Part shown: in pieces, positions 4,690 through 32,430 of the stretch
Layout of the letters: every line of letters begins with the position of its first letter
Position numbering within the stretch: the first letter of the stretch is position 1
Source of the DNA: Glandiceps talaboti
Taxonomy: Eukaryota > Hemichordata > Enteropneusta > Spengelidae
DNA length: 64,000 bases
Direction of reading: 5' to 3'
NCBI RefSeq assembly: GCF_964340395.1
Contig: NC_135559.1
Location: 2,401,501 to 2,465,500, forward strand
Notes under the pieces: generated by a model
Told to the model about the DNA's origin: nothing
The model's database searches: none
Seen by the model: the letters and a program-made list of their open reading frames with translations, nothing else
Made by a program: the position numbers and the translations under genes

Positions 4690-5656
4690 ATGAAATCAGC
4701 ATTTACCATCCTCCAAAAGATAAAACAGCCTCTTATAAAGACTAACAACAGAGCATATAGCGGTGGTGGTTCAAGATATGTGTACAGCAAATACGTTCAA
4801 GGTCCAGCGCAAACTACAGCAGTACTCGCTGGTCGAGAATGGTTACCTGGAGCGAGAAGCGACTTGTGTGAATATCCAAAATTCCTGTCCAGTCCTAGAG
4901 AAAACCTACCAGCTGTATACGAATGCACATACTCTGAATCGCCACAAAATACTCTACAAGATTTGGCGAGCGAAGCACGCGAGATATTAGATGATGGGCT
5001 GCACGTACACGGGGCGATTCTAATTCGTAAACTACCTCTGTCAAATGGAGCGACTTTCTCCAAATTTGTCAACGGTCTTGGATATACTATGATGGGATAC
5101 GAAGGGGGAACAGCCGTACGACATGTACTGTATAACCATGTTTTAACAGCGAGCGATGACCCACCAAGCTATTGCATCGAACCACATAATGAATTGTCGT
5201 ATGCGCCACTTTACCCATCAAAGGTAAGATCCCACTAGTGTTTCCCAGCACGTACTGTCTACTCTTTGGGCAAGGCCCAAGGTCATATCCTATAATAGTG
5301 TATTGTTTCGTTTCGTTTGTTTGGGTACACCTAACAAACCCTGCTGGGGAGTTGTTAATGGTACAAAACGTAAAAGGAAAATAATAATAAAACTAATAAA
5401 CTATCTAAAAGAAGCATTACATATCATTATAAAACTAATGAACTACAAAAGCTATTCAATGAAAAGAAAGAAAAATAATGTATGGTAATTAGACAGATTA
5501 ATGGAGATGTATATTTTATTATGTATTACAATTATTTTGTAGATGGTGGTCTCTTTGTATATTACTTAATTTGATATTTGCCAAGTGCAATAATTAGATT
5601 TGTGTTGCTCATTGTTTCTTTAAACTTTTATTCTTCTGGTAAGTTTCTAAAATTAT

Positions 5657-5705
<49 letters not shown>

Positions 5706-8700: not shown

Positions 8701-10656
8701 ATGGTGTAATGTAATGTAATGTAATGTAATGTAATGTAATGTAATGTAATGCAATGCAATGTAATGTAATGTAATGTAATGTAATGTAATGTGAATTATG
8801 ACACAATATCATTTGAGGTGACATACAACACGATATGGTATGTGCCATGGCAAATCACGCGATAATCACACGCTATCAACGTCAAAAATTACTATCTACT
8901 ACACACAATCTTCTGAAACCTTGAACATCATCCAGTGTGTGAAACTCCAGAATACTACTCATTTTAATCAGCAAGTAAAATACCATATATTGATCAATTG
9001 CAAAATATACAGACTGGCTGCAACATGCGTGCATACATTTCAAGTGCGCAAGGAACACCTAAATATAAGAATAATTATGAAAATTTCACACACTTTGTCA
9101 GTTTTGATAGACATGTTACAATAAGTAAGTTCTAATATTATCTTTTAATAGGCATTCTTTACAGAAGACAAATCACAAGTCGAAAAACTGTTAAACGAAC
9201 GTGGGATGCATTATAAATGGGACGGAGATGGCGCACTATCATATTGGTACAACTTGAAAGCATTTATCACTCACCCAAAGACAGGTGATTATTTCAACAT
9301 ACAAGCTGAACGTGTATTATCATGACTTAATGTACAATTTATAAATAAATAGCTCCCCAAACTTGATATACATAAGGAGTATTTTAGACTGTCGCATGAG
9401 TACAGGATGTGTGGTTTGTCAACAATGAAAAGTGGGTTTGTTGAATTCGAAGGGCAGGACAACGTATACATAATTATATGACGGTCGTATCGTAGAAACG
9501 TAAAATCATCGTCGTAAATTCATCATCGTAAAATCATATAGACCTTTTTGCGGCAACTGTACTACAGGTATCGCTATTATTTTTCGTGGCGTCATTATAT
9601 TATTATAGAAAAATTATAGGCTTGGTTGCGATTATTGAAATAAATTCTTCTTGCCGTTTTTTGTGTTTAGTCAGGAAAATGGTTGTACATTATGCGTTAC
9701 AACTGTTTAGGACTGAGAGCATCTATAGGTGTATACCCCCTGGAATGATGGCCTCGCCAAGGAAAGTAGTATGTGTTTAGTGACCAGAGAAATTACCCAC
9801 ACCCTTTCAGAGTTGAACAAGAGCAAATTACCACTTTGGCTGGCCATGTGTTGCAATATTCAATAATTTATACATACAATCACTTTCGTATTCTTAAAAT
9901 TCATGTTTTCATTCATTGGTTAATTTACATATTTGTATTCTTAAAATCGTTCTCTGCATTGCATTTGTATTCGTACATTTCATGAAGTACTCATAAATTG
10001 TATTGGTTAATTTCGTGAACGTTGAGGTGGAAGAAATGGTTGATATAGTTTTCAATTGTAATTCGTTGCTTACATACAATTCCATATAATTTGCAATTGG
10101 TACATACATTGATAATAACAAAGTTCATGTGTTCTATATAGCTTGTTGATGTGGGTATTTTAATGAGGTATTTGCATAATTGAAAACTTTCGGCTACAGA
10201 ACAATATCTTGAGTATACACGCTTCAAATTAAGGGTATATGATGTATGGTAGCTTCAGCTAAGAATTTTGCATTCCAACAATTACTGTGTATAGGAACAA
10301 AAATCTAAAGGTTCTGCCCTTACGGACGGCATTCAGCTGGTTTAATATATTTTGCAGGAGAGGAAGTCTGGTTTAATCACATCACAGGACACCATGCATC
10401 GTACTACAAAGATCATCCATCATGGGCACATCTCGACATCCCTGACAACAAATTTCCTGCTCACTGTTACTACGGAGATGGTAGTGAAGTCGAGGAAGAA
10501 ACTTTGCAGCATGTCCGAAATGTTACATGGAATGCAGCAGTTGGGTTTCAGCTGCAGAAAGGAGATATCATAGCGTTTGATAATATATACGTTCAACATG
10601 CGAGACTTGGTTTTGTTGGGGAACGGAAACTTCTCGCTAGCCTAACTAAAGACTGA
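4690..10656 (+). CDS. TauD/clavaminate-synthase-like Fe(II)/2OG dioxygenase, copy 2 (complete, 4 exons)
   Basis: Exons are 4690-5223, 8429-8611, 9152-9284 and 10358-10656. All junctions are GT-AG with matching phases (0, 0, 1), giving 382 residues. Exon 1 ends with EPHNELSYAPLYPSK, which carries the HxE iron-binding pair (about H166, E168). Exon 2 has the family's GHGGES segment. Exon 4 carries the distal His (about H364) in VQHARLGF and the 2OG-binding Arg (about R373) in ERKLLASL. The N-terminus (MKSAFTILQKIKQPLIKT) is basic and amphipathic and could be a mitochondrial targeting peptide; that is inference. Compared with copy 3, exon 3 lacks one codon in frame (AACTTGAAA against AACATGCGGAAA). 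Intron 1 is 3.2 kb, against 1.2 kb in copy 3, because of retroelement insertions. Proteins of this family oxidise small molecules; the substrate cannot be told from sequence. Confidence 0.92.
5659..5701. repeat. (AT)n microsatellite in intron 1 of copy 2
   Basis: About 21 AT units. The same place in copy 3 (near 14195) has only ATATAGATATAT, so it expanded or contracted after duplication. Confidence 0.95.
5785..7531. repeat. 36-bp direct repeats flanking inserted material in intron 1 of copy 2
   Basis: ATATTTTACATAATCTACTT and the 16 bases after it occur at 5785-5820 and again at 7496-7531. The sequence between, including a LINE fragment, is absent from copy 3. The repeat is too long for a typical target duplication, so it could mark a rearrangement or a truncated element. 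Confidence 0.7.
6751..7340 (+). mobile_element. Degraded non-LTR retrotransposon (LINE) 3' fragment
   Basis: A frame at 6751 reads VVSCKFLGLNLDNKLSF, then shifts frame near 6800, and continues to TAA at 7232-7234. It includes GSFNIDGKLSLLLYRSIIEP, LLTYC, HPLYAYFDIFPSGRRYHC and SKSFVPSAVRLLNQC. These are the usual C-terminal features of the reverse-transcriptase ORF of CR1/L2/Rex-like LINEs. The tail ends with AATAAATAATAATAAT, as expected for a LINE 3' end. It is 5'-truncated and frameshifted, so inactive. Confidence 0.8.
7946..8277 (-). mobile_element. tRNA-derived SINE, full structure, in intron 1 of copy 2
   Basis: Read on the minus strand: a tRNA-like head with a B box (GCAGGTTCGAGGCC) near 8190-8215, a body, and a tail GTGAGCGCCTTGAG...ATAAATTCGCATTATTATT near 7950-8005 ending in (ATT)n. 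This is the layout of SINEs that borrow a LINE 3' tail. The head is degraded and cannot be a working tRNA gene. A shorter copy sits at the matching place in copy 3, so it inserted before the duplication. Confidence 0.75.
8705..8791. repeat. (GTAAT)n pentanucleotide repeat after exon 2 of copy 2
   Basis: About 17 units, with GCAAT variants in the middle. Open frames reading LHYIT arise from it and are not genes. Confidence 0.95.
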
Positions 10657-10793
10657 CCACTATATTCGACAAAAAGACTAGATGCTTTACTTTGTAGGTA
10701 CATGGTATATTGTACATTGTATTTTAAAACTATCTAACTACGACCAAGTTGATATGTCTGGAGGGAAAGCGTCCGCAATGGAAACACCACAGT

Positions 10794-11846: not shown

Positions 11847-12870
11847 TAGACCTTGATAACTAATGGAGCATTCAGGACCAGCACATCCTGAAGGGGTCAT
11901 AGTGGCCAAGGAAGGGGTCGTCAATTTCAGAGGGAGGGGTTGTCTTATTTTTGACATTGGTCGGAATTATGGCTCTCCAAATCAAATAATTTTATCATAC
12001 CTTGAGAGCAAAACAAAATTTGTCACGATTTCACTTCAATGGTGTAAACTTTATTTTTAACCAACATCTACCTATATACGAATATGAGGCAGATAATAAA
12101 CATGCTTTGATATCTTTTTCTCTATATATGAATATATAATATATGAATAATTCACTGATATTGAGAGTAAATTGATTTAACTATGGTGTTGAAGACAATT
12201 ATTTGTGTATCATTTGCTTTAAATAATGTGTATGGTTTGATATTCTATGCCTCTAAATTACCCCTATATGTTTCCATTTTCAAAAAAGTGTTCATGATTG
12301 GAGGTGGACACACCCTGCCCATACAGCAGCTATTGGTGTGATGCTGCCCCCCTCTCTCACATCACACCAGGGTTGAAAGGAAAAAGCCTTGTTGGCTAAA
12401 TATATCCAAGTATAGGTTAAAGCTCAGTAATTTTTTGTTGCAAAGCCCACATTTCTTTGTGATTAAATTAATACTGGACTCTGCAGAAGTCGATTATTAC
12501 TATACAGTTCATGTATTGTACCTATATACCTAGGCCGGTTGTACAATACCAATGTGGTGGAGAGGAATGCGCTGTAAATATTAAAACGAATGTACACTGA
12601 AATCACAATGTAACATTTTGTGTGTGATGGGAGGGGAGCACTAACATTTTAAATTTCATTTCGGGGGAGGTTTGAACATTTTTAGAGCGCTGACGGCACC
12701 AGGGGTTACAAAAAAATATTGACTGAAGTATTTTCTCATCAAGCCCCCCCCCCCCCCCATGATAAATTTTGCTCGTTCCCTACGGACGTGGACTGATCTA
12801 CGACTACAGCACGAAGTACTCCAGAGTTGGGTCAATTCATGATTTATGAATACGAATAGCTTCTGAAATT

Positions 12871-15800
12871 ATGAAATCAGCATTTACCATCCTCCAAAAG
12901 ATCAAACAGCCTCTTATGAAGACTAACAACTGTTACAGAGCATATGGCGGTGTTGGTTCAAGAACGAGATATGTGTACAGCAAATACGTTCACGCTCCAC
13001 CGCAAACTACTGCATTACTCGCTGGTCGAGAATGGCTACCTGGAGCGAGAAGCAACTTGTGTGAATATCCAAAATTCCTGCCTAGTCCTAGAGAAAACCT
13101 ACCAGCTGTATACGAATGCACCTACTCTGACTCGTCGCAAAATACTCTACAAGATTTGACGAGCGAAGTACGCGAGATATTAGATGATGAGCTGCACGTA
13201 CACGGGGCGATTCTATTTCGTAAACTACCTCTGTCAAATGGAGCGACTTTCTCCAAATTTGTCAACGGTCTTGGATATACTATGATGGGATACGAAGGGG
13301 GTACAGGCGTACGACGTGTGCTATATAAGCATGTTTTAACAGCGAGCGATGATCCACCAAGTTATTGCGTCGAACCACATAATGAATTGTCGTATGCGCC
13401 ACTTTACCCATCAAAGGTAAGATCCCTCTTGTGTTTCCCAGCACGTACTGTCTATTCTTAGGGGCAAGGCCCAATTGTCCTATCCTATAATAGTGTATTG
13501 TTTCGTTTTTCAGCTGCAGTGGTCTGAGGTTAACTTGAGTACACCTAACAAAACCCTGGGGAGTTGTGTACAAAACTGTCATGAATTTGTACTTTAGACA
13601 TGTCACCAAACACCCAGTTGGAGAGAATCTTATCATTGCAATAGCTGACATGGGTGTCAAGACAATAATTTAGACGTGCTTTCATAAATTTACGCCATCT
13701 CGTTTCAATAGGCATTGCTATCATTTTCCCCGAGAATAAGAGAGTTTGGTAATGAGGGCATCACATTTTAGATAAGACGGAAGAATGTCTTGACTCTACA
13801 TGTTTAGTATTTAATAAGATAGCGAGTCTGGAAAACAATTGTCCTCAAGGCGTCCCTTTGTTTCAAATTCACGGATGTAGTCATTCACGTAATTTACATA
13901 TAGTCATTTTTAGACAAAAGACATTCCAAGTTTTCCTGTAAAGAGATTTGTAAAATTTAAGGCAGTCGAATGCTGGCCCTGGGAGGTAATAAAACTAATG
14001 AACTACAAAAGCTATTGAATGATAAGAAAGAAAAAAATATTGTATGGTAATTAGACAGATTTATGGAGATGTATATTTGATTATGTATTACAATTATATG
14101 TAGGTGGTGGTCTACATAAGTGCAATAATTAGATTTGTGTTGCTCATTGTTTCTTTAAATTTTTGTCCTTCTGGTAAGTTTCTAAAATTATCAATATAGA
14201 TATATCAGCTTCATTAAATAGGTCTTGCCTGTGTAAATCATCCCTTTTTTCTAACTCCAATTGCAGTCTCTATAAGCGCATAGGTTTAAAGCATTCACAT
14301 TGTAACCTCTATCCTACCAGGTCCCCAATTATACAGGTGGGCTGACTGAGGCACAATCATGGTTTAAATCTTGCCTAAGAATTTTAACCATTCAGAAACA
14401 AACGGTAGCGACAGGGCTCGAACCTGCAACCTGCAGATTCCAAGCCGCGGGGTCGGGATTCAAAGCTTGCCAACCTAACCCACCATGACTGATACTTCTG
14501 CCAACCGCATAGTCTGTTTTGTTTAAGTTAATAAATAACAGCGTAATGTACAAGACAACTGAATTACAATGCACTCGGATATTCATCTGATATTATATGT
14601 AATATCTATTTCAATAATTTATTTATTTGGACACATATTTTCTATATTGCAGGTCTTCTTCTACTGTGAGATACCTGCTCAGCCTGGTCATGGAGGGGAA
14701 ACTGTAATGGTTGACAACAGAAGTATCTTGCCAAACATCAACACAGATCTTATTGAGAAATTACGAAAGGTTGGGCTTAGATATACACGGCATCTACCAC
14801 AACGACATCCCGAAGGGTATACCAGTTGGCAGGAGGTAAGGCCATTATTATAAATCTGAAATTGACCACATTGACTTTTAGTCTGTGCTCATCAAAGCTA
14901 GCTGAGCTGTCTTTCCGAAGTAATATGTTGTGATGTGATGTGATGTGATGTGATGTGATGTAATGTAATGTAATGTAATGTAATGTAATGTAATGTAATG
15001 TAATGTAATGTAATGTAATGTAATGTAATGTAATGAATGTAATGTAATGTAATGTAATGCAATGCAATGCAATGCAATGCAATGCAATGCAATGTAATGT
15101 AATGTAATATGTTTAATTTATGTAATGTGAATTACGACACAATATCATTTGAGGTGACATATAACACGATATGGTATGTGCCATGGCAAATCACGTGATA
15201 ATCACACGCCATCAACGTCAAAATTACTATCTACTACACACAATCTTCTGAAACCTTGAACATCATCCAGCGAGTGAAACTCCAGCATACTACTCATTTT
15301 AATCAGCAAGTAAAATAACATATATTGATATGGTTGCAACATGCATGTATACAAGTGCGCCAAGAACACCTAAATATAAGAATAATTATGAAAATTTCAC
15401 ATGCTTTGTCCGTTTTGATAGGCATGTTACAAAGAATAAGTTCTAATATAATCTTTTAATAGGCATTCTTCACAGAAGACAAATCACAAGTCGAAAAACT
15501 ATTAAACGAACGCGGGATGCATTATAAATGGGACGAAGAGGGCGCACTATCATATTGGTACAACATGCGGAAAGCATTTATCACTCATCCAAAGACAGGT
15601 GATTATTTCAACATACCAGCTGAACGTGTATTATCATGACTTAATGTACAATTTATAAATAAATAGCTCCCAAACTTGATATACATAAGGAGTATTTTAG
15701 ACTGTCGCATGAGTACAGGATGTGTGGTTTGTCATCAACAATGAAAAGTGGGTTTGTGGAATTCGAAGGGCAGGACAACGTATACATATAGATATGACCG

Positions 15801-16881
15801 TCGTATCGTAGAAAATCATCGTCGTAAAATCATGTGGCGTTAACAGAAAAACTATGCTTTGGGTTGCGATTATTGAAATAAAATATTCTTGCCATCTTTG
15901 TGTTAGGCGGGAAACTGATTGTGGTGTTAATTGTGAATTACAAATGTTTATGAGAGATCATAATTAGCATCTATAGGTGTATACCCCCTGGAATGGTGGC
16001 CTCGCCGGCCAAGGAAAGTAGTATGTGTTTAGTGACCGAGAGAAATTACCAACACCCTTTCAGAGTTGAACAATAGAAAATTGCCACTATGGCACGCCAT
16101 GTGTTGCAATATTTAATAAAAAATACATTTTTGTGCATACAATCACTTTCGTATTCTTAAAATTCATGTTTTAATTTACACATTTGCATGGTAAAAAGTG
16201 ACATTTGTATTGGTTAATTTCATGAAAGAAATGGTTGATATAGTTTTCAATTGCATTAAGTTATTTACATAAAATTACATATAATTTGCAATTGGTACAT
16301 ACATTGATTATAACAAAGTTCATGTGTTCTATAGCTTGTTGATGTGGGTATTTTAATGAGGTATTTGCATAATTGAACATTCTTGGCTATATAACAATAT
16401 CTAAGTGTACACGCTTATATTTGGTATCATTACCTTGCAATTAAGGGGTATATGATGTATGATAGTGTCAGCTCAGAATTTTGCATTCCATTAATTACTG
16501 TACATGAATAGGAACAAAAATCTAAAGGCTCTGCCCTTATATGAAGGTATTCAGCTTACATTTGGTTGAATATATTTTGCAGGAGAGGAAGTCTGGTTTA
16601 ATCACATCGTAGCACACCATGCATCGTACTACAAAGATCATCCATCATGGGCAAATCTCGATATCCCTGACAACAAATTTCCTGCTCACTGTTACTACGG
16701 AGATGGTAGTGAAGTCGAGGAAGAAACTTTGCAGCACGTCCGGAATGTTACATGGAGTGTAGCAGTTGGGTTTCAGCTGCAGAAAGGAGATATCATAGCG
16801 TTTGATAATATATACGTTCAACATGCGAGACTTGGTTTTGTTGGGGAACGGAAACTTCTCGCTAGCCTAACTAAAGATTGA
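12871..16881 (+). CDS. TauD/clavaminate-synthase-like Fe(II)/2OG dioxygenase, copy 3 (complete, 4 exons)
   Basis: Exons are 12871-13416, 14653-14835, 15463-15598 and 16583-16881, with the same splice phases as copy 2, giving 387 residues. Catalytic residues are kept: HNE at about H170/E172, distal His at about H369 and Arg at about R378. The N-terminus is again basic and Ser/Tyr-rich before the conserved GREWLPGARS segment. Exon 1 is four codons longer than in copy 2 (extra residues before YVYSKYV). Exon 4 reads HIVAHHAS where copy 2 reads HITGHHAS. The start is the first Met of the long exon and aligns with that of copy 2. The whole gene plus about 1 kb of 5' flank is homologous to copy 2, so it is a segmental duplicate. 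Every exon is intact, so I expect a working enzyme. The substrate is unknown. Confidence 0.92.
14290..14500 (-). mobile_element. tRNA-derived SINE, copy in intron 1 of dioxygenase copy 3
   Basis: It is homologous to the SINE at 7946-8277. Minus strand: CATGGTGGGTTAGGTTGG (A-box region) and GCAGGTTCGAGCCCTG (B box). The LINE-like tail is missing. It was shared by duplication, not inserted independently. Confidence 0.75.
14928..15106. repeat. (GTGAT/GTAAT/GCAAT)n pentanucleotide repeat after exon 2 of copy 3
   Basis: About 35 units in three blocks of variants, twice the length of the matching repeat in copy 2. Confidence 0.95.
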
Positions 16882-17026
16882 ACATTATATTCGACAAAAA
16901 CCTTCCTAAATATAACCCCCCACTAAATATCTATTTTGTTACTTTTTAGGTACATTGTACATTGTATTTTAAAACTATCTAACTACGACCAAGTTGATAT
17001 GTTTGGAACGCTATGAAATCTCCTTT

Positions 17027-18386: not shown

Positions 18387-19079
18387 TGGGAAATCTGAAA
18401 TGAATTTGACATTTTCCAGAAAGATTACCGTTAAGTATTTTACAAGTGTTTTATTGGACTTTAAACAAACATGAAATACAACTGAAGTTTCAACTTGAAA
18501 TTTCAATACAATGATATAGTTAAACAATAACAGTATTAAATCTATTTTCGGCAATTATCAATTCCATGAATCATTAACACACAAATGTTTACACCAACAG
18601 CTGTCACGAACTCATTATGAACAAACGTCTTATTTGCCTTGTGCCATGAGGGCACTGTCGCTAAAAGTGTTCAGATGTTCCTACAGTGTATTTCTTTCCT
18701 TTGCGACATTTTTGCTCACTACACATTACAATTTAAGTTATCTCAATACACAGCATGTCTCTAATAAACACATAACATTGTTAAGAATATGTTTCACATA
18801 ATATACTATACATGTATTTGCAAACCATTCTCGCAAATAAGAGCTGTTATTTCTTCCGCTACACTTCCATCTGGGCAGCATGTTTTCGACGGTGCCGAAA
18901 AAGAGGCCGTGGTTGCGACGATGTTGCAAACTTTTCCACTTCGTTCTACCTACACATTCCAATAAATGTACATGTACGCTTTAAAAGTTTTGAAGAAAAA
19001 ATTCATAATTTTGAATTTAATAACTGGTATTCACGTCTAAGTTGAATGAATTTATATGCATATGCATCTGTGTGAAACT

Positions 19080-19212
19080 GTGCATGTATATTATTTATAT
19101 ATATAATGGTGTGTGGTTGTGACTGTGAGACTGTGCATGTATATGATATATATAATGGTGTGTGGTTGAGACTGTGCATGTATATGATATATATAATCGT
19201 GTGGGGTTGTGA
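19080..19212. repeat. Tandem repeat of about 50 bp, nearly 3 copies
   Basis: ACTGTGCATGTATATGATAT followed by ATATAATGGTGTGTGGTTG is repeated with small changes. Confidence 0.8.
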
Positions 19213-19355
19213 GTGCTTGTGTTTCAAATAGTCCTTGAACCACATCCTACAATATTAGCATCCCCTCAAAGGGTCATCCCACGAGACAAGGATTGCAGCA
19301 ATCATTGTCTTTTCTTCTGGATGTCATTTGACTGATAGTTGTGAGACATTCCAAA

Positions 19356-19412
19356 TTAGGTCAGACGATTACACAGACACAGTGTGGCTTTGGTATTGGA
19401 TCTCGGAGACAC
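19356..19412 (-). CDS. Terminal exon with second half of GPS motif and immediate stop
   Basis: After an AG acceptor (TGTGTAG) the exon reads 18 codons ending CLCNRLT and then TAA, TTT, GG. In a canonical GPS the sequence is CxCNHLT-x-F-G, and cleavage occurs between L and T. Here Arg replaces the His that acts as base in self-cleavage, and a stop codon takes the place of the residue between T and F. The bases after the stop still spell F-G, which suggests descent from a longer ancestor. It joins in phase 0 to exon 19682-19773, which carries the CDYW..W..C half. Confidence 0.8.
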   Translation of the reverse strand: MSPRSNTKATLCLCNRLT

Positions 19413-22400
19413 CTACACAGTAAACATAAATATTTATCTGTTGAATGTTGTCAAATGATTTTTTTTTAAATATTAAGATTTGTGAGCCTGTAATGACGTC
19501 ATGATTTGTATAGATAAAAAGCAAAAACATAATAGGCATGTTTTATTTAATGTCATTATTTTTTAATGTAATATCATGAATAAACTTGAGATATATTTGT
19601 CTGCATGCTATGTCGATTATTGAATAATGAATATTTTAATTTTACGAATACATTATTGTTTATAAATGTGTTATCTCTTACCTTGCACACATCATATCGC
19701 CATCGTCCTTCATCATCACTCCAATAGTCACATCTATGCTGAGTCATACCCACAGTAAAGTTGGTCTGGATGCCTGTAATAGTGAAATCGATGACTTTAT
19801 ACAAGAACAAACAAACAGAGGATGGACTTAATTATGTCGAGGTTGTTTACTGTGAAATATAATTCAAGAATTAATTCTACCCAAGTTGAATTAAATTGCA
19901 AATTTGAAGTGCAACATTTAATGTTTTCTTATATCACTTACTTGCTGGTAAGTCAAAGTTAAATGTATAATTTCCATTATACCAGATTTCATGTTCTGGG
20001 ACGAATACGTCGAACGTTGTACCATTTATCTTGACGGCAGTCGAGTATATCCTTTCACTGGTGTTTCTAAGTGTGTTCTCATAATACACCGTAACCGTTG
20101 TGTTTTCCACAATGTTCGTTGAACCAGCAAGAGTCAGTTTCAAAGCGGCGAATGGTTGGGAGACCTGAAAAAACGTATATAATTAGAAAGACATTTTCCA
20201 ATAATTGAATAACAAACTAATATGATGTCTATCAAACCAATCAATTTGGCAATTGTCAACACGTCGCAGTTACCTCTCCACTCCAGGTGTAATTTTTCCA
20301 GTCGTCAGAGTGGGTTGCCATCACACTTTCACCATGAAATATTCCAGGAGTTTGTCTTCCTAACCATACTCCAATATCCTCCTTTGTGTCAGTTACTGTA
20401 ATAGCAAGGCAATGTATTATCAATCCTGTTTGGATTTTGGATTTTAAAGAGCATGCGCAGGTTAATAAGGTTGTCGAGTCAGGATGGTCGAATGGTTAAA
20501 GTACAAATCTTCGAATGGACAGCTTACAGTGGACGGCTTTGAATCTGCGGATTGCAGGTTCAGCATGCCTTGCCTTTTTGATGATGTTAATGTGAACTTC
20601 CATTTATTATTGTATTATATGCACATAAACATGTTTGTAAACATCAATACATGTCTGCGGCACTCTTAAAGGAGACTGATTTATGGGTCTTAAAAAAGTC
20701 ATTTTGACCTATCTTGCATCACGTGACCTTTCTAAAATACATTTAATAATTGTCTCCAGGAGTTTTGCCCAAACAATGATGAAACCATTGTTTTACGTCG
20801 TTCTATAACAGTGCTGTGACAACACTGGTGTGTTTAGTGATGAGTTTAGATACCGTGACTGATTAGTATTTTTTGGTGATTTTAGAATTTTAATTAGTTT
20901 TGGAGATATACACGTCTACAATACATATTTTGAAGTTACGTGACACGTGCAATTAACTCTGTAATTATTCACATATATCGTCATACCATTTATCTTAGTT
21001 CCATTGGGGAAGGTGAACGTTAAACCAAGTACATCATAGATAAACTCCTGCTGACTTCTACTGAAGGGGTTGCCAGTAATTCGGTAAGCCTGTGGTGTAA
21101 ACAACATAAGATACTTCAGTTAGTTGAATTTTGTCGTCATTTGTCTTGCTTTGTAAAACAGAAATGGGTTAAACTCTCACCATATTTGTCATTTTTTTTG
21201 TTCACTACTAGACGGCAATTATATTCCTGACTATGACTTTTGATTACACAAGATGATCACCAACTCGTTCTTTTGACTGACTCATACATACCTACAAAAA
21301 CATATTTTACCAATCACAGTACAGTGATGTCGTTACAACATTAAAGGAGATAGAGACATTTCATAAACTATGGGTTTTGGAGAGTCATTTCATGATTTTA
21401 CATAACCTGAAATTACTTGCTTGTAGCGACGTTCCCCTTGACAATACATGACTAGAATGCATTTTAGGTGTTTACCCGTTGCAGTGACGCACATCAGAAT
21501 GTCATGAAGAAATAAACTATTTGAATGTATAACAAACAGCAAACGTGCATTTCAAATGTATTTTGTTCATCAACACAAGAAATCCTTTCGTTATATCTAT
21601 ATAGTCTTGTAATCTAGTAATGAATGAAGATAACGTAGTGTACAATCGGAATACGGTCGTCAGTAACTTGACTAAAATCGGAATACGGTCGTCAGTAACT
21701 TGACTAAAATCGGAATGGGGTCGTCAGTAACTAGACTATCATATCGGTTACCAACGTAGAACACAGATATGTCATGATTTTGTCCAGGTTTCACCTACGT
21801 TCAAAATTAATTTGTCTCTTGGTTTGAGTTTTGATGATTACCTTTATATAAACAGCATTGTCGTTTCCAAGCTTTGGGAATGTTGTCTCAGCAGATGGCA
21901 ATTCGAATCCACTGTCATGGCCTAGGTCAATATTTTTGTTACCCGTAGCTTCAATAGTCCCAGACTCCATGTACAGCATCACGCGTGTAGTGTTGATGAC
22001 TACAGTGGTATTTTCAAATTCCATATTATTCAGAACAAATGAAGCTGTCTTCTCCAAGATGTTCATGGTTTTCTCAGTCAAATCTCTAACGGCCTCAGGA
22101 CTCATAGTTTCGTTGTCAGGTGATGATGCCATTGTGGTTGAGCTGGTATCCATCAGGTTACCAACAACTGACACCAGGGCTGGACAAAGAGTACACATGA
22201 CATGTATTTAAAATTTACAATTTGTGACAGGGTATCTATTTACTTTTGGAAGGAGTCATTAGCACAGATGACATGATATGTTGCTTTCTTTGCAAAAAAA
22301 CATAAAATCTGATATTTTGAAATGTATTGCTTTGAGATGCTTACCTTCAGCGACTTGTTTACTTTCCTTTAAAGTTACACTTAATCCTTGTAGATTCTCA

Positions 22401-24945
22401 GTGATATTGTATAAACCATCTATTTGTTCTCCGACCTAAAAAAGAAATAGCATGATAACGTCTTCTGGATATCTTTTTTTCTTCAAAAAGCATAGTTTAT
22501 AAAAAGGTGTCATTACAAAATAACTGATGTGACGTAGTACAATTCATCTTTTCTTATATTTGGTAATTTTGGCTTTTGGAAAAATACGCGAATTTATGTT
22601 CATTGCTATTGTTTATTAAGTAAAACCTAAGGTTAATAACATCGCCACATGTCATCGTTTGACAAAAAATTCCTACCGTATTTTGCTACATTATATTTGA
22701 ATCATTCTTCATTTAGCAGTCGTTGCCAAATACATCGTCTATAGTAAAGGACAATGACAGACTTCACCATCTAGTTCCATCCCCGAATCATCACAAGTAT
22801 TCTACACGTTAAAATGGAAAAGTCACTTTCAAGTGTACATTGAGTGTAGGACAAAGCGAAGAGAAGACAGTCCTGTAGTGTATAGCATTAGGTTGGTTGA
22901 GTAAGTTGCAGTTTAGTGTGTTGACGGGTTTGTTTGTTTGTTTATTTTTATTTAGGTATTTTTGTTTATTTTTTATTATTTTTTGTGTACCTGCCTTTTA
23001 TTTTGTTCCTCGTAAATGATATGTTAATTTTAATTATTTGACTTTGTATTTTATTAGACTTTGACAACTTTTTAGGACTTGTTTTATTGATCAACTACAA
23101 AGTGTCTGTTGGAAATAGGGTAGCAGACTTCAGCACAAATCTGAACACCTGCCCAAATAGTGTGCCCTTTGAAATGTGAAGATAATCTAGTAAATACCCT
23201 CAAAATGTGAAGATAATCTTGTAAACACTCTGGGTAAATACCCTCAAAATGTTAAGATAATATTGTAAATACCCTGGATAAATACCCTCAAAATGTGAAG
23301 ATAATCATGTAAATACCCTGGGTGAATACCCTCAAAATGTGAAGATAATCGAGTAAACACTCTGGGTAAATACCCTCAAAATGTGAAGATAATCTAGTAA
23401 ACACTCTGGGTAAATACCCTCAAAATGTGAAGATAATCTAGTAAATACCCTGGATAAATACCCTCAAAATGTGAAGATAATCTTGTAAATACCCTGGGTA
23501 AATACCCTCAAAATGTTAAGATAATCTAGTAAATACCCTGGGCCGTAAATACCCTCAAAATGTGAAGATAATCGAGTAAACACTCTGGGTAAATACCCTC
23601 AAAATGTGAAGATAATCTAGTAAATACCCTGGATAAATACCCTCAAAATGTGAAGATAATCTTGTAAATACCCTGGGTAAATACCCTCAAAATGTTAAGA
23701 TAATCTAGTAAATACCCTGGGTAAATACCCTCAAAATGTGAAGATAATCTAGTAAATACCCTGGGTAAATACCCTCAAAATGTTAAGATAATCTAGTAAA
23801 TACCCTGGGTGAATACCCTCAAAATGTGAAGATAATCTAGTAAACACTCTGGGTAAATACCCTCAAAATATTTGATTTTTCAAAGAGATCTCGAACTAAA
23901 TTTGGTAGGTTGAGTTGTAACTGTTCAGAGTGTAGGGATTTCATTACTTTCATTACTTTACTAAAACAAAACTGCATAGTGGAAGAGCTGAACAGCAGAA
24001 CCACTTCTACACATGTTACAAAAAAACCAAAACCCTAAAAAAAAACCAAAGAAAACCTAAAAAAAACAAAAAAAACCTAAAAACAACAGCGAAGCTATTC
24101 TGACCAATAGGTCACTTGTTCATCAAAATGTTATCCTAATTATCTTGGCATATAAGTTAAAATGCTCCATTTAAGTAGAGTCTAGTCTTATCTGAAAGTG
24201 AAAATATGTATCATATTTAATTACTGTAACATCACATGTAAGTACGGAGACCCCATCAGATGGATATACAGTGTAAAAGGCTTCCATACCTGTTGTTTTG
24301 AAACAGCTCCAGTAGAATTAATCGATTCGAACGACAGTATTTGAGAAATCACTTCTCCAGTATCCAGTGCTAGTGTCGAATGGAAAATAAAACAAAAAAT
24401 TACCCAAGTCAATCATGATACACCAAACATAAATACTAAATTATGCTTACAGGTAATTCTTACCATATGTTTTGTTTACCAACTTTGAAATATATGTATG
24501 TAAACAAATATCTTATGCAATGACTGAACAATTATGAAGACTGTTAGTGGAGATTACAGAATCGTTGGAAATTAAATTAGTCTAAGGGGGTTGTCATTTT
24601 TAACTGACTGGCAGGGGCTGGTTATTTTGGTACGTGGTCATTTTGAAAAACACTACTTGAAGTGAAGGGGCAATTTGGAGAACATAACTTGAAGTGGGGT
24701 CACTTTGTAAAACACGAAGTGTGTTTGTCATTTTGGTGTCGTGAAATGACTCCTGAACAACTGTGGGAGGGGACAGCCCTCCCTTATTTTATACATAGAC
24801 CCTCATATTCCCAGGGTGTGGCGTCAAAGTATAGTAATATGAAATCCATACATGTCATATTACTATACTTTGACGTCACAGTATATTAATATGATCGGAA
24901 CTACTTTGAATTATTTGTAAACATCATCAACCGGTACAGTTACGA

Positions 24946-25010
<65 letters not shown>

Positions 25011-28000
25011 GAAAATATGATTTCCTTTCTATTCATGGATTGTCGAACATTGACCATTATCATCAGTGTAAACAATCAACAAATACACCTCTTTTGGAAA
25101 CATCTATCACCTTTCGTACAGCCACTAACGTACTATTTGGATTCTTAAATCGGGCCGACAAAAAGTCACTGACCCCCCTATCTGTAAAACCAAAAACAGG
25201 CTGACTCCCCTATAACAATTCTAAAACATGATGACCCACCCCCCCCCCATATATAATATTCACATGATAGGTATTTTTTGATCGCGATTCAGTGTGGATT
25301 GCTTGACTGTCTTGCATCTACTTTATGCTATAAAACTCCTTTTTGAATATATTTACCCTGTGTAGTCAATAATTATATGGTAGTACTATCCCGGGATCTT
25401 ATAAAGTATTTGCAAGACAGTCAAGCAGTCCACACTTAGTCATGATCAAAAGATACTTGTCATGTGAATATGATATATGGAGGGGGGGGGGTCATCATGC
25501 TTTAGAATTCAGTGATAGAGAGGTCAGTCTGTTTCTGACTTTTTGTTGGCCGATGGCAAAATCCACCTCCCCCGGCTGGAGAAAGTGACCGGTCCCTTAG
25601 TATATACGTCCACTGACCTTTCAGAAACACTTGCAATTGACATAGGTAAAGAATCCTGTTGTGTCCCACCGAGGAGCTCTTATACACTATGACATATCTT
25701 CCGAAGATGGCGCCATTTGTACAGTTTGCGGATAATTTTCCCTTTAGCACCTTATCGTTGATATTGAAACAGACTGTGCTACTATGAGGATCTAATCGGT
25801 TGTGTTACCCACAACTACATAGCTTTCCAGATAATCACCTTGGGAAGAACGAAGGAAACATGTGAATGTAAAGGGCAAATGAAAAATGTCAACACAAGCA
25901 TTATAATTATGTCGTCAAACGTCGAATATGATGTTTCGAAAACTTCGTAACAAAAACTGACTTTTCAAGGCAATCTCGCTACATGAAATTAATTTCAACC
26001 TTCTTTCGAAGTGTATAGCACTTTCACTAATGCTAAAGACCCCCCTCCTCCCCCCTCATGCACACGTGTCAGTTACATAAAATCAATTCCAAATACACAA
26101 ACAACAAATGTACAATGTAAAGAGGCGACTGTTGCCAATGACGACCAGACGTACAACGAAGAACAGATGAGCGAATGTTCAATAGAACATTGCATAACTA
26201 CATAATATTGTTAACGTTATTAATTTTAATTACAGGAAAGAATCATAACTTTTAAGCTTCAATGAATTAATTCTATATATAAGTCTATACATTTCTGCCT
26301 TTAGTTTTTTTCCTTCGAGAGATATCTTTTAGTTGGTCTTCATAATCCGGTATTGAGATATCTTGATGCCAGGTTAGTCATATACCGTAGATTTGCATAG
26401 GGACATGTAGTATTTAATTTCTTAGATTATTGTTTTTCTTATTGTTTGTCTATAGGCCTAAACTATTAAGGTATGGTGTTGCCGAAGGCCTTTACTCAAG
26501 TCAGACTGGTTGTTTGACATGTGCAATATCAGTAAGTATCAACTTAACAATCGTTCAAACACCCCCACCTTCCCCTCCCTCCCATCAAGAAAATAAACTT
26601 ACGTCCTTGTGTAACATCATTGCCGAAATCTAACAATACACCTTCTACGACATAGAGTGTTTGTAGATCGATAATAAAACCGGGTTCACGATGAGAAACA
26701 TTCGAAAGGACACAAGTTAATGGATCACTGTCCACAATGAACTGGTAATTCGGATAGTCAGGGATGTTATATCCTGTGACAGGTTTATTCAGTGCGATGT
26801 TATCTGTAAAATAAAGGACAAACATCGCGTTTCATATTATTACACATTATATTATAGCATTACCAATTCCAGTGAATTTTGTGACGTCATCGCTGTACAT
26901 TATTACTGATAATGTACTCCGTTAATGGCATCGCGGCCCCGGAACGAGCATAACAATGCAAGCTTATGTCCGTAATAACAATAACGTGTGTCGCTATGAT
27001 TAGTATTCAGCTTCTGGGCCGAACATGGCAGACGATGTTCAGCGCTGTGTATATTATACGTTGTTTTGCGTTTCTCGGTCTACAAATTCACTGGAATTGG
27101 CAAAAATATAAAATAATAACAATAATGTACGCCCTCCGCATCCATAATGGACTCAAGCAAACTTTGCACTCCATAATGGGCTCGGCTGTCGCCTCGCCCA
27201 TTATGTCGTTCAAAGTTTGCTTGAGTCCATTATGGGTTGGGAGGGCGTAAATTATTGTTTAAACATTACCAATTATACTAACTTGTGGTACTTTACTATA
27301 CAACACAAAGTACAACCCCCAAACAACGAATAACACGTCTTCTTCGAAGAGATCATCCAAAAGAGAATGAAGTATGAAAAAGTTGTCAATTGTGTTACAA
27401 CGAAAATCATAAACCCTGAAAGAAAATGTCGTCTGGCTCGATATAAATCTCACGAGCATTGCTACATTTTTTAGTCTGGCTAGGCAAAATATCTCTTGGA
27501 TGTTGCAAATCTTCTTAACTGGTTCGACAAAAATCTAATAAATATTTCCGCATGTTACTGTCTGGCACGACAAGAATTGAATTGCAATTGATACATTTTA
27601 GTCAATTGACTTATTCATACATTTACCAGGTTAACTTTCTCAATACTCTGATAACATTCTGATTTCATATAAGGTAACTTTAATTCAAACTCGCCAATTT
27701 AAGTTAGCAACAATTTCCCGGCCGATTGGCATACGCAAAGACAATTAACAACTCACGGGACCTGTCATTTCTCGTCTATTTAATTAATTATCCTGATAGT
27801 CATGCCGTGTGCCGTGTGTTCAACAATAAGGTAATTTTATAAGTGTGTAGACATGGACACGTTTCATTGACCAATTAATCAGACATCTAATCAATTATGT
27901 ATGAAGAGTTAAACCCGTTACCAATGGCAACCTACATCGCCGCCGGCTGACAAGCGAAATATTAGTCGAGTTCTCTCTCAAACGTACCTTCTTTACGTAA

Positions 28001-28844
28001 GCCTAATAAAAAAATTGTGTGGTTCCGATATCGATTAGGCTCAATTTTAGAATAGGTGTGGTAGGTAGATTATTTTTTTTAATTATATATTTTTTCACGT
28101 GTGAGTGTCTAGTTCAGGTTTTCCATTGTTTTCCAAATGGTCTCAGTATAGGTAGTTATGTTTTCTGTTGTTTTCCATATGGTCTCTGTTCCTATCAGAT
28201 GTACAGCCATTACAGATTGGAAGAACAGTTTTATATTGTCTTTTTAAGTTGATGGCAGTTTCCGCATCCACTATTTCACGTGAGACTTCTTACTTTTTTG
28301 CGATTTCATTATTTTTTGTTTAGGGTCGGCAGTGAAAAACTAGATGGGGCCGGGTAACCGGAACCAAACAATTAATTTTTCAGTCCTTAACATTGCTGAT
28401 AGGATTCCCCGATAAGGTACGATGATACAATAAGCGTCTATTCCTACACTAAATCGCTAGTACTACCACCCCATGGCCGCAGTCTGGAGGGGGTTATAGG
28501 AATGACGCATGTCCGGTCCGTGCGCGTGTGTCCGTCCATCCTTCCGTGGCCAACCATATCTCTGATACCTATGACTCAATTTCAGTCAACCCTGGCTCAA
28601 ATGTCAGAAACTATAGACTGCATATGCACGTCACTCGCGACTTTGACCTTTATGACAAAATGGCGGTCACATTTGTAATACAAATACATTTTGCCTTCCA
28701 TCTCCAAATTATGACCACATACAGATATGACCTTGATTTTTCATTTCTGATAAGATTGTAGGACCACATTTCATATGTCAATAATTAACACATCCATCCC
28801 CCCCTCTCTCTCTCTGTCTCTGTCTCACTCTGTCTCTGTCTCTG

Positions 28845-28890
<46 letters not shown>

Positions 28891-31800
28891 TGGTGGCAAT
28901 AAATAAATACTATTTTAGTGTCTGTGATATACAGGAAATACCTGGATTTTGAGAAATGACCCTGAAGGTCAAGGTCAGTCTTAAAATAAGTTTACATCAG
29001 CTAATATAGGGATGGACACTTGAATGGGGAGTTTCCATGTATTGAAGTTGTTGAGTTATGCGGTATAAAGTCATGATTTTTCACTGCAAATATGGCCACC
29101 ATTCAGTTAAACGTTATTTGAGCACCAAAAGTAATGCATTTGTGACCTATTTCTCATCTCTTGTTCTGCATTACCTTTAGACATTGTTTTGAAATAAATT
29201 GTCCATACATAAATGCTACAAATGTTCTGCAATATACAAGAAATCGCTTGATTTTGATCATTGACACAGAAGGTCAAGATCGAGGTCAAATGTCACTTTC
29301 TCACAAGAAAACTTGCATGTGATTGTATGGCGTTCGATACTTTATTGGACACTATTGTCTTGACAGTTTTGAGTTATACAGCAATATATTGATTTGTTAC
29401 ATGTACTTTCTATCTAGAGTCTTATGAAGTGTGGGCGGGGCTTATTTTGTAGTTCGTAATGATTGACTATTCATTACATCACTCGACGTCCAGTTTCATT
29501 TTGAATATCACATGCGATGATGATGCGTTGGTCGAGTGTTGTGACTACATACACTCTGTAAGGAGGTATCTTGTGCCGTATCATGATCAGCGTGCAATTT
29601 ATATAAGGCCAAAAAAAAAGTTTTGTTTCCCGTCCTCGCGCGCGTCATTCCAAACCATGCGCATCGTACGTTTTTATTCTGTTTCCCCATTATTGTTTCA
29701 GACCGTCACTGGCGATTTGTGAAATACGCCACCTAAATGTTTCAACTGTAAAAAATTCAGTGATTGTATTAGTATATTTAAAGGGTAATTAAAGTACTGG
29801 TAATTTGATATGATGGTACCTCTTTACATTTCGTCTGAATACGTATCATGTAGACGCGTACATACATGTTATAAGGATGAACGCGTACTCTGTACTAATA
29901 CATGTGTTGTAGAAGCTCGTGAGACAGGACGTCTAGCGGACACACAGACAGTTTATAGTATACAACGCAACGCTATGCGAAGCGACCAAAATTTTCACGA
30001 TAAGGACAACGTTTTTTAGAAATTATTTCTTAAATTTCCCCATTTCTGAGTTCATATAACACAACTGTGGCAAATATTTCTATGAATCGTACAATACTTC
30101 ATGACTACTTTTGCGACGTATGTGTAGAAATAGACAAGGTAGGAAAGCTTGAAATGCGGAAGTGACTAACAATATCCTTCAAACATTAAAAAGAGAAAAC
30201 CCGACAACGCAACGCTACAATTTTATATGCATAGATAAGTCTTTGTTTAATCACGCATTTTACTCATGAAGAAACTAAAGCGAGGATTTCTTTTTTTTAT
30301 AGTGTTTTTCGATTACGTCTCAAGATGCCTTCCATGTTCTGATGACTCAAAGACAATCAAAAGTGTGGCCAAAATTTCATAATTTGGATCGCCCAAACAG
30401 ATGTTTTGAACTCCACAATGCCATTATCAGGTGGTTGCAAGATCGTAACTTGGGATGGCAAAAGCAGTAATAATCCTTGGGAGAACAGTTTGCCAGCGTT
30501 CTTGGGGAATGTTTATGGTTGATCGATCCACCAGTTGTGTGTTTTCTTCCCCCCCCCCCCCCCATAAAAAAAACCGCATCACCGCATCATTTTTGAAATT
30601 ACCTTAGGACGGGAAACAAAACTTCTTTTTTTTAGCCTAATACTTTTGAATATAAAAGAGTTTGGCCTTGTTCGTATGGTTACCATTATACAAACCATGC
30701 AATAGACCTAAGTGTATGGAGGTATCTTCTACTTCCAAGGTAAATGACTATCCTCTGTTATGTGCTATTGTTTTTTTCTCTTTTTTTTCATTGAATTTTT
30801 CTGCCTTACATCATGGAGGCAGGAAGCTTCACCAACGCCCGTGTAACACTCTCCCCAGCCTTTGGGCCACTAATTAATACTAAACAATTCAGTTCTAACA
30901 TATCTCCTATATCATCTCACGGCCTATATTTTCCTCGATGACAGATTTTATTCAACTGTAAACCTTCCTCTTATTTTCAACATTGGATAATGTCAATTAG
31001 TTTGATCTCCTTGGTCTCACTTATAGAAACAAGTTGTAGATACGTTCACCTTGAATAGTGTTACATTTAGACAGTTCCAGTAACATTAAAACGCCAAAAA
31101 CTTTTCAACCACATAAGACGTATTTCCATACCATTGAACAAATTTACTGTTTAAAACCCTTATCAATTCCAAAATCTGAACTTGACCATCTGAAGCAACT
31201 TTTTAAAAATAGATATACGTAGGTATTCTGCAGAGATCTGTACAGTATTTGAAAATAGATACACGTAGGTATTCTGCAGAGATCTGTGCAGTATTTGATA
31301 TCTGACGTGTACGCCGTGGACCTTGGTTTTGAAATCTATTTGTAAAATGAAATATCTAACATTTCGTTACAGAAGCCATTGAATACGGCCTTCTACGGAT
31401 ATTTCGACCAAACAAAATGTCTAAGTTTACCCAAAAAACCTACCCGCGCTCTGGACGGTAAAGGTAGTTATCAAAAGTATGTCAACGCCCAGACCGTTCA
31501 TTGAGTACTTCTTATGAACAGGTGGTTTTGTGGAGTTTCAGACAAATAGTCTTGAGAGACACTTTATGTCTCTACCACAACTAAATGCTAGTTCAATTAG
31601 GTCTAACAATGATGTCAAAAGGCGATAACAGATTCTGCGAATATTTGCCTTTTATTTGTTTTGGTATAATATCTATGACGGAAGCTTACTGGACAAGATA
31701 AAAGTGATAATTTCTTAGACTAGCTTTTCACTTACAAAATAAGAGATCATAGTAACAATCTTTATGACTCAGTAGTACTGAGCTAACTCATCACAGTGAC

Positions 31801-32430
31801 TATACATACAACTGTTACCTATATACGAGTGACGGACCAACACTAAAAGTTAACCATTAGGTGAAAACCTGTTTTCAGAACACTTAGCTAGTAAGATTAA
31901 AATGTAATATGGCAAGGTTAAGTTTGAAAAACCACACATCAAAGTGTTCACAACACAAAGAAACCCCAAAGTTTCGATTCTTGTTATTCATCTGCTAAGT
32001 GTATAGCTTTTACTCATTATTGGACATATCAGTTTTACCTTACAATCATGTCATGATCAATACCCTTATGAATATATTTACAAGGTTAATTCTCGTCTTA
32101 AATATGTGCAATAAGGATCCCAATTCTTATGTGTCATTTATGGATATACACATTCGTAAGTGACAAAACAAAGTATTTGAAAGAAAGAAAAATCAAATGG
32201 GGAGGATATGCGATATTCAGATGCCCTTACAGCCCGGTACAACCCTCAGGCTTTAAGGGAATATACAATCTTGTTTACCCCATAGTTGCAGCTCCGTCCG
32301 AAAGTATGTACACACAACCTTGAAAAGAATATACAAGTTTGACTTTACCCATAGTTGTAGCTCCGTCCGAAAGTAGGTACACACATACAATGAAGAGAAT
32401 GATAGTCTTCACGTTATAAAGCTCCTTCAT
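19356..32430 (-). CDS. Secreted F-type-lectin-like (F5/8C) + GAIN-like + GPS protein, ending at the GPS site (11 exons)
   Basis: Exons in coding order: 32430-32349, 26803-26603, 25791-25618, 24369-24290, 22435-22345, 22179-21842, 21089-20987, 20395-20274, 20164-19942, 19773-19682, 19412-19356. All ten junctions are GT-AG and phase-consistent, giving 520 residues. Residues 1-27 are a signal peptide (MKELYNVKTIILFIVCVYLL then SDGATTM). Residues 28-152 resemble a fucolectin/F5/8C domain, starting DNIALNKPVT and ending GRYVIVYKSS...LCQLQVF; the NRxD fucose-binding motif of F-type lectins is not evident. Residues 153-471 are an N-glycosylation-rich ectodomain with Ser/Thr and helical parts like a GAIN or polycystin-type region. 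Residues 486-520 are a GPS motif: C486, W489, W496, C501, then CLCNRLT (C514, C516). The usual HLT is RLT, and the next codon is TAA. No membrane helix follows. It could be a true soluble protein or a receptor gene cut by a nonsense change. The exon chain is strong; the start exon is less certain. Confidence 0.8.
20471..20600 (+). mobile_element. Degraded SINE head in an intron of the lectin/GPS gene
   Basis: GTCAGGATGGTCGAATGG resembles the A-box part of a tRNA-Ser/Leu-type head. TTTGAATCTGCGGATTGC followed by AGGTTCAG matches the second half of the SINE in the dioxygenase introns, in the opposite orientation. The tail is not clear. Confidence 0.5.
21640..21739. repeat. Tandem repeat of about 33 bp, 3 copies, in an intron
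   Basis: AATCGGAATACGGTCGTCAG followed by TAACTTGACTAA occurs three times, the last with GGGG in place of ACGG. Confidence 0.9.
23172..23869. repeat. 44-bp minisatellite, about 16 copies, intron of lectin/GPS gene
   Basis: The unit is GTAAATACCCTCAAAATGTG followed by AAGATAATCTAGTAAA and ACCCTGG or CACTCTGG. Units come in at least two versions (AAATACCCTGG and AAACACTCTGG) that are mixed along the array. There are no spacers of changing sequence. Confidence 0.95.
24822..24875. repeat. Perfect 21-bp-arm palindrome
   Basis: Arms CGTCAAAGTATAGTAATATG(A) and its exact reverse complement flank a 12-base loop. A partial third copy of the arm follows at 24880-24893. Confidence 0.9.
24946..25008. 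repeat. (TTG)n microsatellite
   Basis: About 21 TTG units. Confidence 0.95.
25149..25556. mobile_element. Fold-back element of about 408 bp next to an exon donor
   Basis: The left end ATCGGGCCGACAAAAAGTCA and the right end TGACTTTTTGTTGGCCGAT are inverted. Inner parts also pair: TGACTGTCTTGCA with TGCAAGACAGTCA, and TTCACATGATAG with a matching right-arm segment, along with C-run and G-run. Its right edge is 60 bases from the donor of exon 25618-25791. It has no coding capacity. Confidence 0.75.
26860..27101. repeat. Inverted repeat around a 200-bp unpaired centre
   Basis: ACCAATTCCAGTGAATTTTG near 26862 is inverted as CAAATTCACTGGAATTGGC near 27083. The element at 27130 lies directly beyond it. 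Confidence 0.6.
27130..27247. mobile_element. TA-flanked 118-bp palindrome (mini-MITE)
   Basis: Arms CGCCCTCCGCATCCATAATG and onward (ACTCAAGCAAACTTTG) are mirrored with a few mismatches by a right arm ending GGGAGGGCG. TA flanks both ends (27128-27129 and 27248-27249). Confidence 0.8.
28001..28388. mobile_element. Dispersed non-autonomous element, copy A, about 380 bp
   Basis: It starts GCCTAATAAAAAAATTGTGT then GGTTCCG and ends CGGAACCAAACAATTAATTT, an inverted form of its start. A second copy is at 45426-45803. Inside, phrases such as TCCATTGTTTTCCAAATGGT and TTGGAAGAACAGTTTTAT are shared. Confidence 0.8.
28455..29330. repeat. Composite dispersed repeat with CTCTGT tract and AGGTCA motifs
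   Basis: GTCCGTGCGCGTGTGTCCG, then GGCGGTCACATTTG, a CTCTGT/CT tract at 28803-28887 and then AAGGTCAAGGTCA at about 28968. Similar AGGTCA-bearing text occurs at 33240-33400 and 54790-54960. Confidence 0.55.
29607..30637. mobile_element. Harbinger-like element, 1031 bp, TAA target duplication
   Basis: Terminal inverted repeats of about 30 bases: GGCCAAAAAAAAAGTTTTGT (left) and ACAAAACTTCTTTTTTTTAG-CC (right), followed inward by TTCCCGTCC. TAA flanks both ends (29604-29606, 30638-30640). GGCC ends with a 3-base TWA duplication are typical of PIF/Harbinger. No transposase is evident. It carries an exon-like open stretch at 30303-30470. Confidence 0.75.
30303..30470 (+). pseudogene. Exon-like open stretch inside the Harbinger-like element (unknown family)
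   Basis: A strong acceptor (TTTCTTTTTTTTATAG) is followed by an open frame: CFSITSQDAFHVLMTQRQSK, then VWPKFHNLDRPNRCFELHNA, then IIRWLQDRNLGWQKQ and TAA. The amino acid mix looks protein-like rather than random. I do not recognise the family. It may be a captured host exon or a remnant of the element's own gene. No partner exon could be identified. Confidence 0.35.
31207..31299. repeat. Tandem duplication, 47 bp, 2 copies
   Basis: AATAGATATACGTAGGTATT followed by CTGCAGAGATCTGTACAGTATTTGA is repeated with two base changes. Confidence 0.9.
32271..32397. repeat. Tandem duplication covering the donor half of the signal-peptide exon
   Basis: ATAGTTG(C/T)AGCTCCGTCC followed by GAAAGTA(T/G)GTACACAC occurs twice, about 68 bases apart. 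The right copy is part of exon 32349-32430. The left copy keeps an ATGGGGTAAAC donor-like site. Confidence 0.8.
32349..32430 (-). CDS. Candidate signal-peptide exon of the lectin/GPS gene
   Basis: ATG at 32430-32428 opens 27 codons plus one base, with a hydrophobic core (TIILFIVCVYLL) and a short polar end, as in a secretory signal peptide. The exon ends ATGG followed by GTAAAG, phase 1. Joined to the next exon at 26803 (starting AT) it makes GAT and gives TTM-DNIALNKPVT, the usual start of an F5/8C or fucolectin domain. The intron would be 5.5 kb. The exon's downstream half, with its donor, is duplicated in tandem at about 32271-32331 inside the intron. The call depends on phase, signal character and sensible fusion; no transcript is available. 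Confidence 0.65.

Follow-up and report, generated by a model that had tools for sequence, protein, structure and literature searches.

A candidate secreted gene family ending at the GPS cut site in the hemichordate Glandiceps talaboti

The Leu-Thr bond in the GPS motif is the site cut in adhesion GPCRs and in the relatives of polycystin-1. In the literature consulted, GAIN/GPS domains are reported for membrane receptors, from which cleavage releases an N-terminal fragment. The GAIN domain is given a size of about 320 residues, and adhesion GPCRs are described as losing cleavage when the His at position −2 is mutated (PMC13197933). The consensus of the tethered agonist after the GPS is stated as TxFAVLM (PMC12716839). 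As to recognition modules, pentraxin domains are recorded in four adhesion GPCRs (PMC10687090), and a discoidin domain is described for some amphioxus adhesion GPCRs (PMC2246102). Soluble adhesion-GPCR N termini are reported to arise by alternative splicing and intron retention (PMC11039983). The sea urchin protein SpREJ10 is described as having no predicted transmembrane segment, its GPS being missing too (PMC1934368). Searches of the open-access literature gave no report of a family of genes that terminate at the GPS.

Here we describe a minus-strand locus within a 64,000-nucleotide stretch of DNA, referred to as the window (C12:2401501-2465500 of a 590-Mb genome in 47 contigs, by which the paralogs are named). 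With a probability of about 0.72, we interpret this locus as part of a tandemly expanded secreted family composed of a signal peptide, a swappable F5/8C or pentraxin module, a GAIN-like region and a GPS, ending one residue past the Leu-Thr bond and probably not self-cleaving.

Gene model and state of the window copy

Between 32430 and 19356 of the minus strand, eleven exons were chained into a 520-residue protein (Table 1), with AG acceptors at exons 2-11, GT donors at exons 1-10 and agreement of all phases. At the stop frequency of the local introns (0.0605), a chain of 521 open codons has a probability of about 8e-15, uncorrected for the choice of splice sites. The phase-matched chain proposed in the first-pass annotation, which had been made from the sequence of the window, was reproduced with its splice sites and its 520 residues, except that the acceptor of exon 3 is placed at 25838 instead of 25791. 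Both the TAA straight after T520 of CLCNRLT and R518 at the position of the cleavage His, as claimed there, appeared again in the translation. The N terminus is hydrophobic as judged by eye and resembles a signal peptide. The 3′ part of exon 1 is duplicated together with its splice donor in intron 1 (32251-32330 and 32319-32400, 83% identity), and a 44-bp unit forms an array of some 15 copies within intron 4, at 23190-23869.

Table 1. Features of the minus-strand locus in the window
Feature	Coordinates	Strand	Remarks
Exon 1	32349..32430	-	start codon, N terminus resembling a signal peptide; identity 85% to C9
Exon 2	26603..26803	-	F5/8C module, first half; identity 80% to C9, 50% to C18
Exon 3	25618..25838	-	F5/8C module, second half; likely acceptor 25838; frameshift at about 25797-25780 in the window copy
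Exon 4	24290..24369	-	linker; C9 counterpart 70% identical, with in-frame stop
Exon 5	22345..22435	-	start of the GAIN-like region
Exon 6	21842..22179	-	GAIN-like region; 34 exon-6 loci in the genome including that of the window, plus one partial
Exon 7	20987..21089	-	GAIN-like region
Exon 8	20274..20395	-	GAIN-like region
Exon 9	19942..20164	-	GAIN-like region
Exon 10	19682..19773	-	first half of the GPS motif (CDYW..W..C); Pfam GPS
Exon 11	19356..19412	-	CLCNRLT and TAA stop; same-codon stop in 19/19 CLCNRLT loci
Presumed 3′ untranslated region	18450..19355	-	AATAAA at 18455; end inferred

Elsewhere in the window, tandem TauD/TfdA-like dioxygenase genes were observed on the plus strand at 4672-10760 and 12850-16960 (PF02668, 26.9 and 26.4 bits at a cut-off of 27; extents by eye), and the C-terminal exon of a phospholipid-translocating P-type ATPase on the minus strand at 60470-60919 (PF16212, 30.7 bits). 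An open reading frame on the plus strand at 6779-7231 matched ALKBH8_N with 26.6 bits, a domain that is usual in reverse-transcriptase elements.

The pyrimidine tract score is poor for the acceptor at 25791 (0.375) and 0.94 for that at 25838. The acceptor matching 25838 is used by C9, the closest paralog, and by C18, the next, where a single frame reads SYVVVGNTTDPAMSSTVC and NVIVGDVSDPFADSSTTC. Since both paralogs stay in one frame from this acceptor, exon 3 of the window gene is most likely 25838-25618. A net +2 (or −1) frameshift, found neither in C9 nor in C18, lies between GNTT and SSTVC of the window copy, near 25797-25780. The F5/8C module of the window copy is therefore interrupted unless the internal acceptor 25791 is used.

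The F5/8C domain ascribed to the protein gave no Pfam match at E<=1 in the initial eleven-exon model. For F5/8C_2 (PF22633, cut-off 27.8 bits), the window sequence with X at the frameshift scored 17.7 bits and C9 24.0 bits, both below the cut-off, but C18 scored 28.7 bits, supporting the assignment by way of this paralog. A scrambled segment in the disputed place of exon 3 still scored 16.6 bits; the window score is therefore no proof of this segment, and the paralogs carry the point. The fucose-binding motif HX24RXDX4(R/K), as stated for F-type lectins (PMC5712786), was absent by inspection from exons 2-3 of the window. Because of the frameshift and the missing motif, the window copy is probably no intact lectin, as which it had been described, and its own product is probably impaired. 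The F5/8C exon of a C12 paralog (L079, 5936-6266) contains NRQDCC, near the F-type lectin motif that is absent from the window copy.

There is about an even chance that the window locus is a pseudogene, that is, a damaged family copy without a product of its own, a reading compatible with a secreted family. The exon 3 frameshift is private to the window copy in comparison with C9 and C18, and C9, its closest paralog, is broken too. Against this stand the intact state of the remaining ten exons with their splice sites and the dN/dS of 0.36 between window and C9 over exons 5-10 (dS 0.164, dN 0.059). On the window branch, 7 synonymous and 11 nonsynonymous changes were counted in exons 6, 9 and 10, roughly 0.4 after scaling by sites. 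In addition, use of the internal acceptor 25791 would mend the frame with a loss of about 16 residues, and the frameshift may be a sequencing error. Within the family, the window copy could well have become a pseudogene recently, or its exon 3 may represent an allele or an assembly error. The 3′ flanks of window and C9 are 0.777 identical over 1906 aligned positions, and the flank is therefore no better kept than synonymous sites.

The paralogous family and its shared stop

Genome search with exons 4-11 yielded 110 matches, including the 34 exon-6 loci and the partial one; some of these matches contain stops. With exons 1-3, the best matches outside the window were located in C9 and C18. On the unrooted FastTree tree, the window gene was joined by C9 (0.998), then by C18 (1.0) and then by C12 (0.997), and a tandem expansion of the family was found on C23. 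The C9 paralog carries an insertion of about 8.6 kb that interrupts its exon 11 (L020 about 2331 to L049 about 7782); the start of the insertion looks LTR-like, with a primer-binding-site-like stretch.

The degenerate pattern TLCLCN[HR]LT, with the next codon left free, was detected at 26 places, which are related copies and not independent events and do not include motif-divergent members; the reversed control pattern was detected at none. A stop follows directly after Thr in all 19 CNRLT loci (18 TAA, 1 TAG) and in 0 of the 7 CNHLT loci, all of which read on. A polymorphism or assembly error at the TAA, considered in the first-pass annotation as the opposite case, thus meets the same-codon stop in every CLCNRLT locus found. 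The replacement of His by Arg at the cut site was borne out in part: R518 is present, but Arg is not peculiar to the window gene, since it occurs in 19/19 stop loci and marks the whole subfamily. Identity among 18 Arg loci (153 pairs, ungapped, C9 omitted) reached 0.88 for the 27 nt of exon 11 that lie outside the pattern, compared with 0.60 for the preceding intron and 0.45 for the first 27 nt past the stop. A further in-frame stop exists within 100 codons past the exon-11 stop in 18 of the 19 Arg loci. The paralog at C12:7.13M (L058) differs from the other 18 Arg loci in that, past its TAA, no stop occurs in frame over at least 100 codons.

The GPS motif noticed in the window protein was confirmed by Pfam (PF01825) on residues 485-520 with 25.1 bits, above the cut-off of 22.5, and the GPS was matched in all seven aligned family members. 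PDB search with the family profile gave the GPS of ADGRG6 as its sole match (E 0.01). Neither Pfam GAIN nor, at E<=1, Pfam REJ was matched in the window protein or the seven members, and exon 6 gave a low-confidence structure model (mean pLDDT 48.8), whose quality did not suffice for a fold search. For lack of a Pfam GAIN match and with this model quality, assignment to GAIN rests on the GPS, on the position and on the size, exons 5-11 comprising 338 codons (a region of about 340 residues). The region of exons 5-11 is accordingly called GAIN-like, and its GAIN fold is putative.

At the N-terminal side, F5/8C_2 matches were located within 10 kb upstream of at least 7 of the 34 exon-6 loci among the best 150 matches listed, counted beside C12:7.13M, C18 and C9; the C12:7.13M member scored 38.7 bits. 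In the one copy of this type examined, the C23:15.73M member, a pentraxin exon (86 bits) with phase-1 borders is followed by exons 4, 5 and 6-11 and the stop. Because pentraxin here replaces F5/8C before the same exons 4-11, the recognition modules look exchangeable. The C23 pentraxin-type copy harbours reverse-transcriptase sequence (PF00078, 41.9 bits) in the intron that separates its exons 5 and 6 (L078, about 7718-8000).

Sequence constraint was then considered over the family. For 18 Arg paralogs and exons 5-11, giving 126 instances, 94 exons were found with AG/GT sites and none of these with a stop, although the exon finder favours stop-free borders; six were without the splice pair and 26 were absent from the sequence stretches examined. 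The full set of exons 5-11 was recovered for C18 and C12:7.13M, and for C23:15.73M as well once the stretch L078 was added. The dN/dS by the Nei-Gojobori method (exons 6, 9 and 10, 14 genes) had a median of 0.35 and a range of 0.25-0.91, and was below 1 in 91/91 pairs; the highest values, up to 0.91, come from pairs of very similar copies. It is improbable in our judgement that the whole family consists of truncated receptor duplicates that have no function and are decaying. Stops or insertions in some members and the tandem expansion would agree with such decay, and human PKD1 is described as having six pseudogenes that copy exons 1-33 (PMC4976333). The consistently low dN/dS, the 94 of 126 exon instances that are intact and the exactly kept position of the stop all argue against it. 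Some members of the family are dead as read from their sequences, because of the frameshift in the window copy, the exon 4 stop and exon 11 insertion in C9, and the stops in other matches.

His-type relatives and the search for membrane domains

Two His-type relatives were studied in more detail. At C26:12.49M, exons 6-11 were matched with 28-56% identity, CNHLT is kept and the stop lies 16 residues past Thr. At C8:6.11M, exons 6, 7 and 9-11 were matched with 35-72% identity, exon 8 was not found, CNHLT is kept and the stop lies 9 residues past Thr, with no GT between Thr and stop. The tails in C8 and C26, TIFGISRDMI and TTFAISRNVILIESNNH, are of the TxF type. Four other His-type loci (C26:12.48M, C26:7.42M, C10 and C2:32.4M) have tails of 12-23 residues before the stop, as viewed within 3 kb only, where the match is mainly to exon 11 and GT sites are possible donors. 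The in-frame sequence past the TAA of the window, FGMSHN, resembles these His-type tails, and FG directly after the stop was found in 0 of the 18 other Arg loci. This is most naturally read as the loss of a short tail when the stop moved up to Thr, the tailed form being the presumed earlier state.

One could go further and regard the family as a two-part soluble signalling device derived from GAIN, in which the His type is a caged diffusible agonist and the Arg type a decoy or cap, a proposal that we hold to be unlikely. Because CNHLT is kept and a short TxF-type tail ends the protein, the His-type proteins of C8 and C26 may be able to self-cleave and to hold a diffusible agonist peptide in caged form, without a membrane part. 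In the Arg-type members, which are without the last (agonist) strand, an empty groove could accept a strand from other receptors, and these proteins might act as decoys or caps.

For membrane domains, the genome was searched exon by exon with 7tm_2, PKD_channel and PLAT, and the comparison used the best 150 of 249 candidates for 7tm_2, 22 of 61 matches for PLAT and 47 of 62 for PKD. Full-length paralogs with membrane helices, which the first-pass annotation had proposed to look for, did not emerge near the Arg loci among the matches listed. Among the matches listed, a same-strand 7tm_2, PLAT or PKD match was located within 10 kb downstream of 0/19 Arg loci, 1/7 His loci and 44/82 GPS loci, the last, found through a single-exon GPS, being a comparison group and not a matched control. 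Within 20 kb the counts were 0/19, 1/7 and 47/82, respectively, and the single His locus represents a polycystin-like gene. For 7tm_2 alone, among the matches listed, they were 0/19 for Arg loci versus 45/82 for GPS loci within 20 kb, and neither PLAT nor PKD channel was present within this distance at any of the 19 Arg loci among the matches compared. When the minus strand of the window was scanned in three frames against Pfam and PDB, no membrane or GPS-related match appeared, only two weak chance matches. These read-through scans are insensitive to split domains and carry little weight downstream, because the same scan missed the GPS of the gene itself.

Three candidates were rejected. A hydrophobic segment near 17290, taken as a downstream membrane exon, is not phase-matched to exon 10 by eye; with an alternative last exon near 18946, the GPS falls to 10.3 bits; and a nonsense change private to the window was discarded as the paralogs carry the same stop.

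When X was read through the TAA, the GPS score rose from 30.8 to 36.2 bits, while ten control tails, nine taken from other parts of the window and one permuted, gave 27.7-31.3 bits; FG codons come after only 4 of the 1576 TAA on that strand. Because the read-through score exceeds those of all ten control tails, a remnant of TxFG may persist after the stop of the window gene. These results would agree with a receptor that is normal apart from a nonsense change, or in which exon 11 is skipped, with membrane helices downstream, yet such a receptor is very improbable given the same-codon stop at 19/19 loci, the lack of 7tm_2, PLAT or PKD within 20 kb among the matches listed, the convergent TauD-like gene about 2.5 kb away (extent by eye) and the finding by tblastx of only short weak segments past exon 11 between the flank of the window and those of C18 and C23, the comparison of C18 with C23 being swamped by simple repeats.

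Proposed role and comparison with known systems

For the secreted family that we prefer, the products would be secreted glycoproteins corresponding to a ready-made N-terminal fragment. Arg-type proteins are taken to stay uncut, because the His at −2 is replaced by Arg and nothing remains to be released. The N-terminal module would bind glycan or surface ligands, and the GAIN-like part would serve as a structural or protein-binding module. A soluble recognition role, in innate immunity or in cell or gamete recognition, is our guess, since the pentraxin and F5/8C modules and the tandem expansion on C23 fit such a role. If true, this is a natural experiment provided by a multigene family: its members end exactly where the cut would fall, and all those found to do so have exchanged the cleavage His. 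Such an experiment would separate the function of the fragment itself from receptor signalling, and could be tested in one animal.

Among known systems, the F-type lectins and other F5/8C proteins share F5/8C_2 with the C18 and C12:7.13M members, but the window copy differs in being frameshifted and without the fucose motif. The polycystin-1/REJ family has in common the GPS motif and lectin-like ectodomains, but here neither PLAT nor PKD channel, among the matches compared, nor REJ was matched. SpREJ10 is without the GPS, whereas the present family keeps the GPS and ends at it. Soluble adhesion-GPCR isoforms are alike in that receptor N termini are encoded without the need for cleavage; they come from receptor genes, whereas here the genes of a whole subfamily themselves carry the stop at the cut site. 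The adhesion GPCRs, ADGRG6 and its relatives, share the GPS with four Cys, Trp and CLCN-x-LT, the GAIN-size region before it and, in the one member examined, pentraxin. They differ in that here no 7TM was found among the matches listed, the tethered agonist is lacking and the stop comes right after Thr; in place of their His-Leu/Ile-Ser/Thr tripeptide, Arg-Leu-Thr stands in the window gene and in 18 further loci of the 26.
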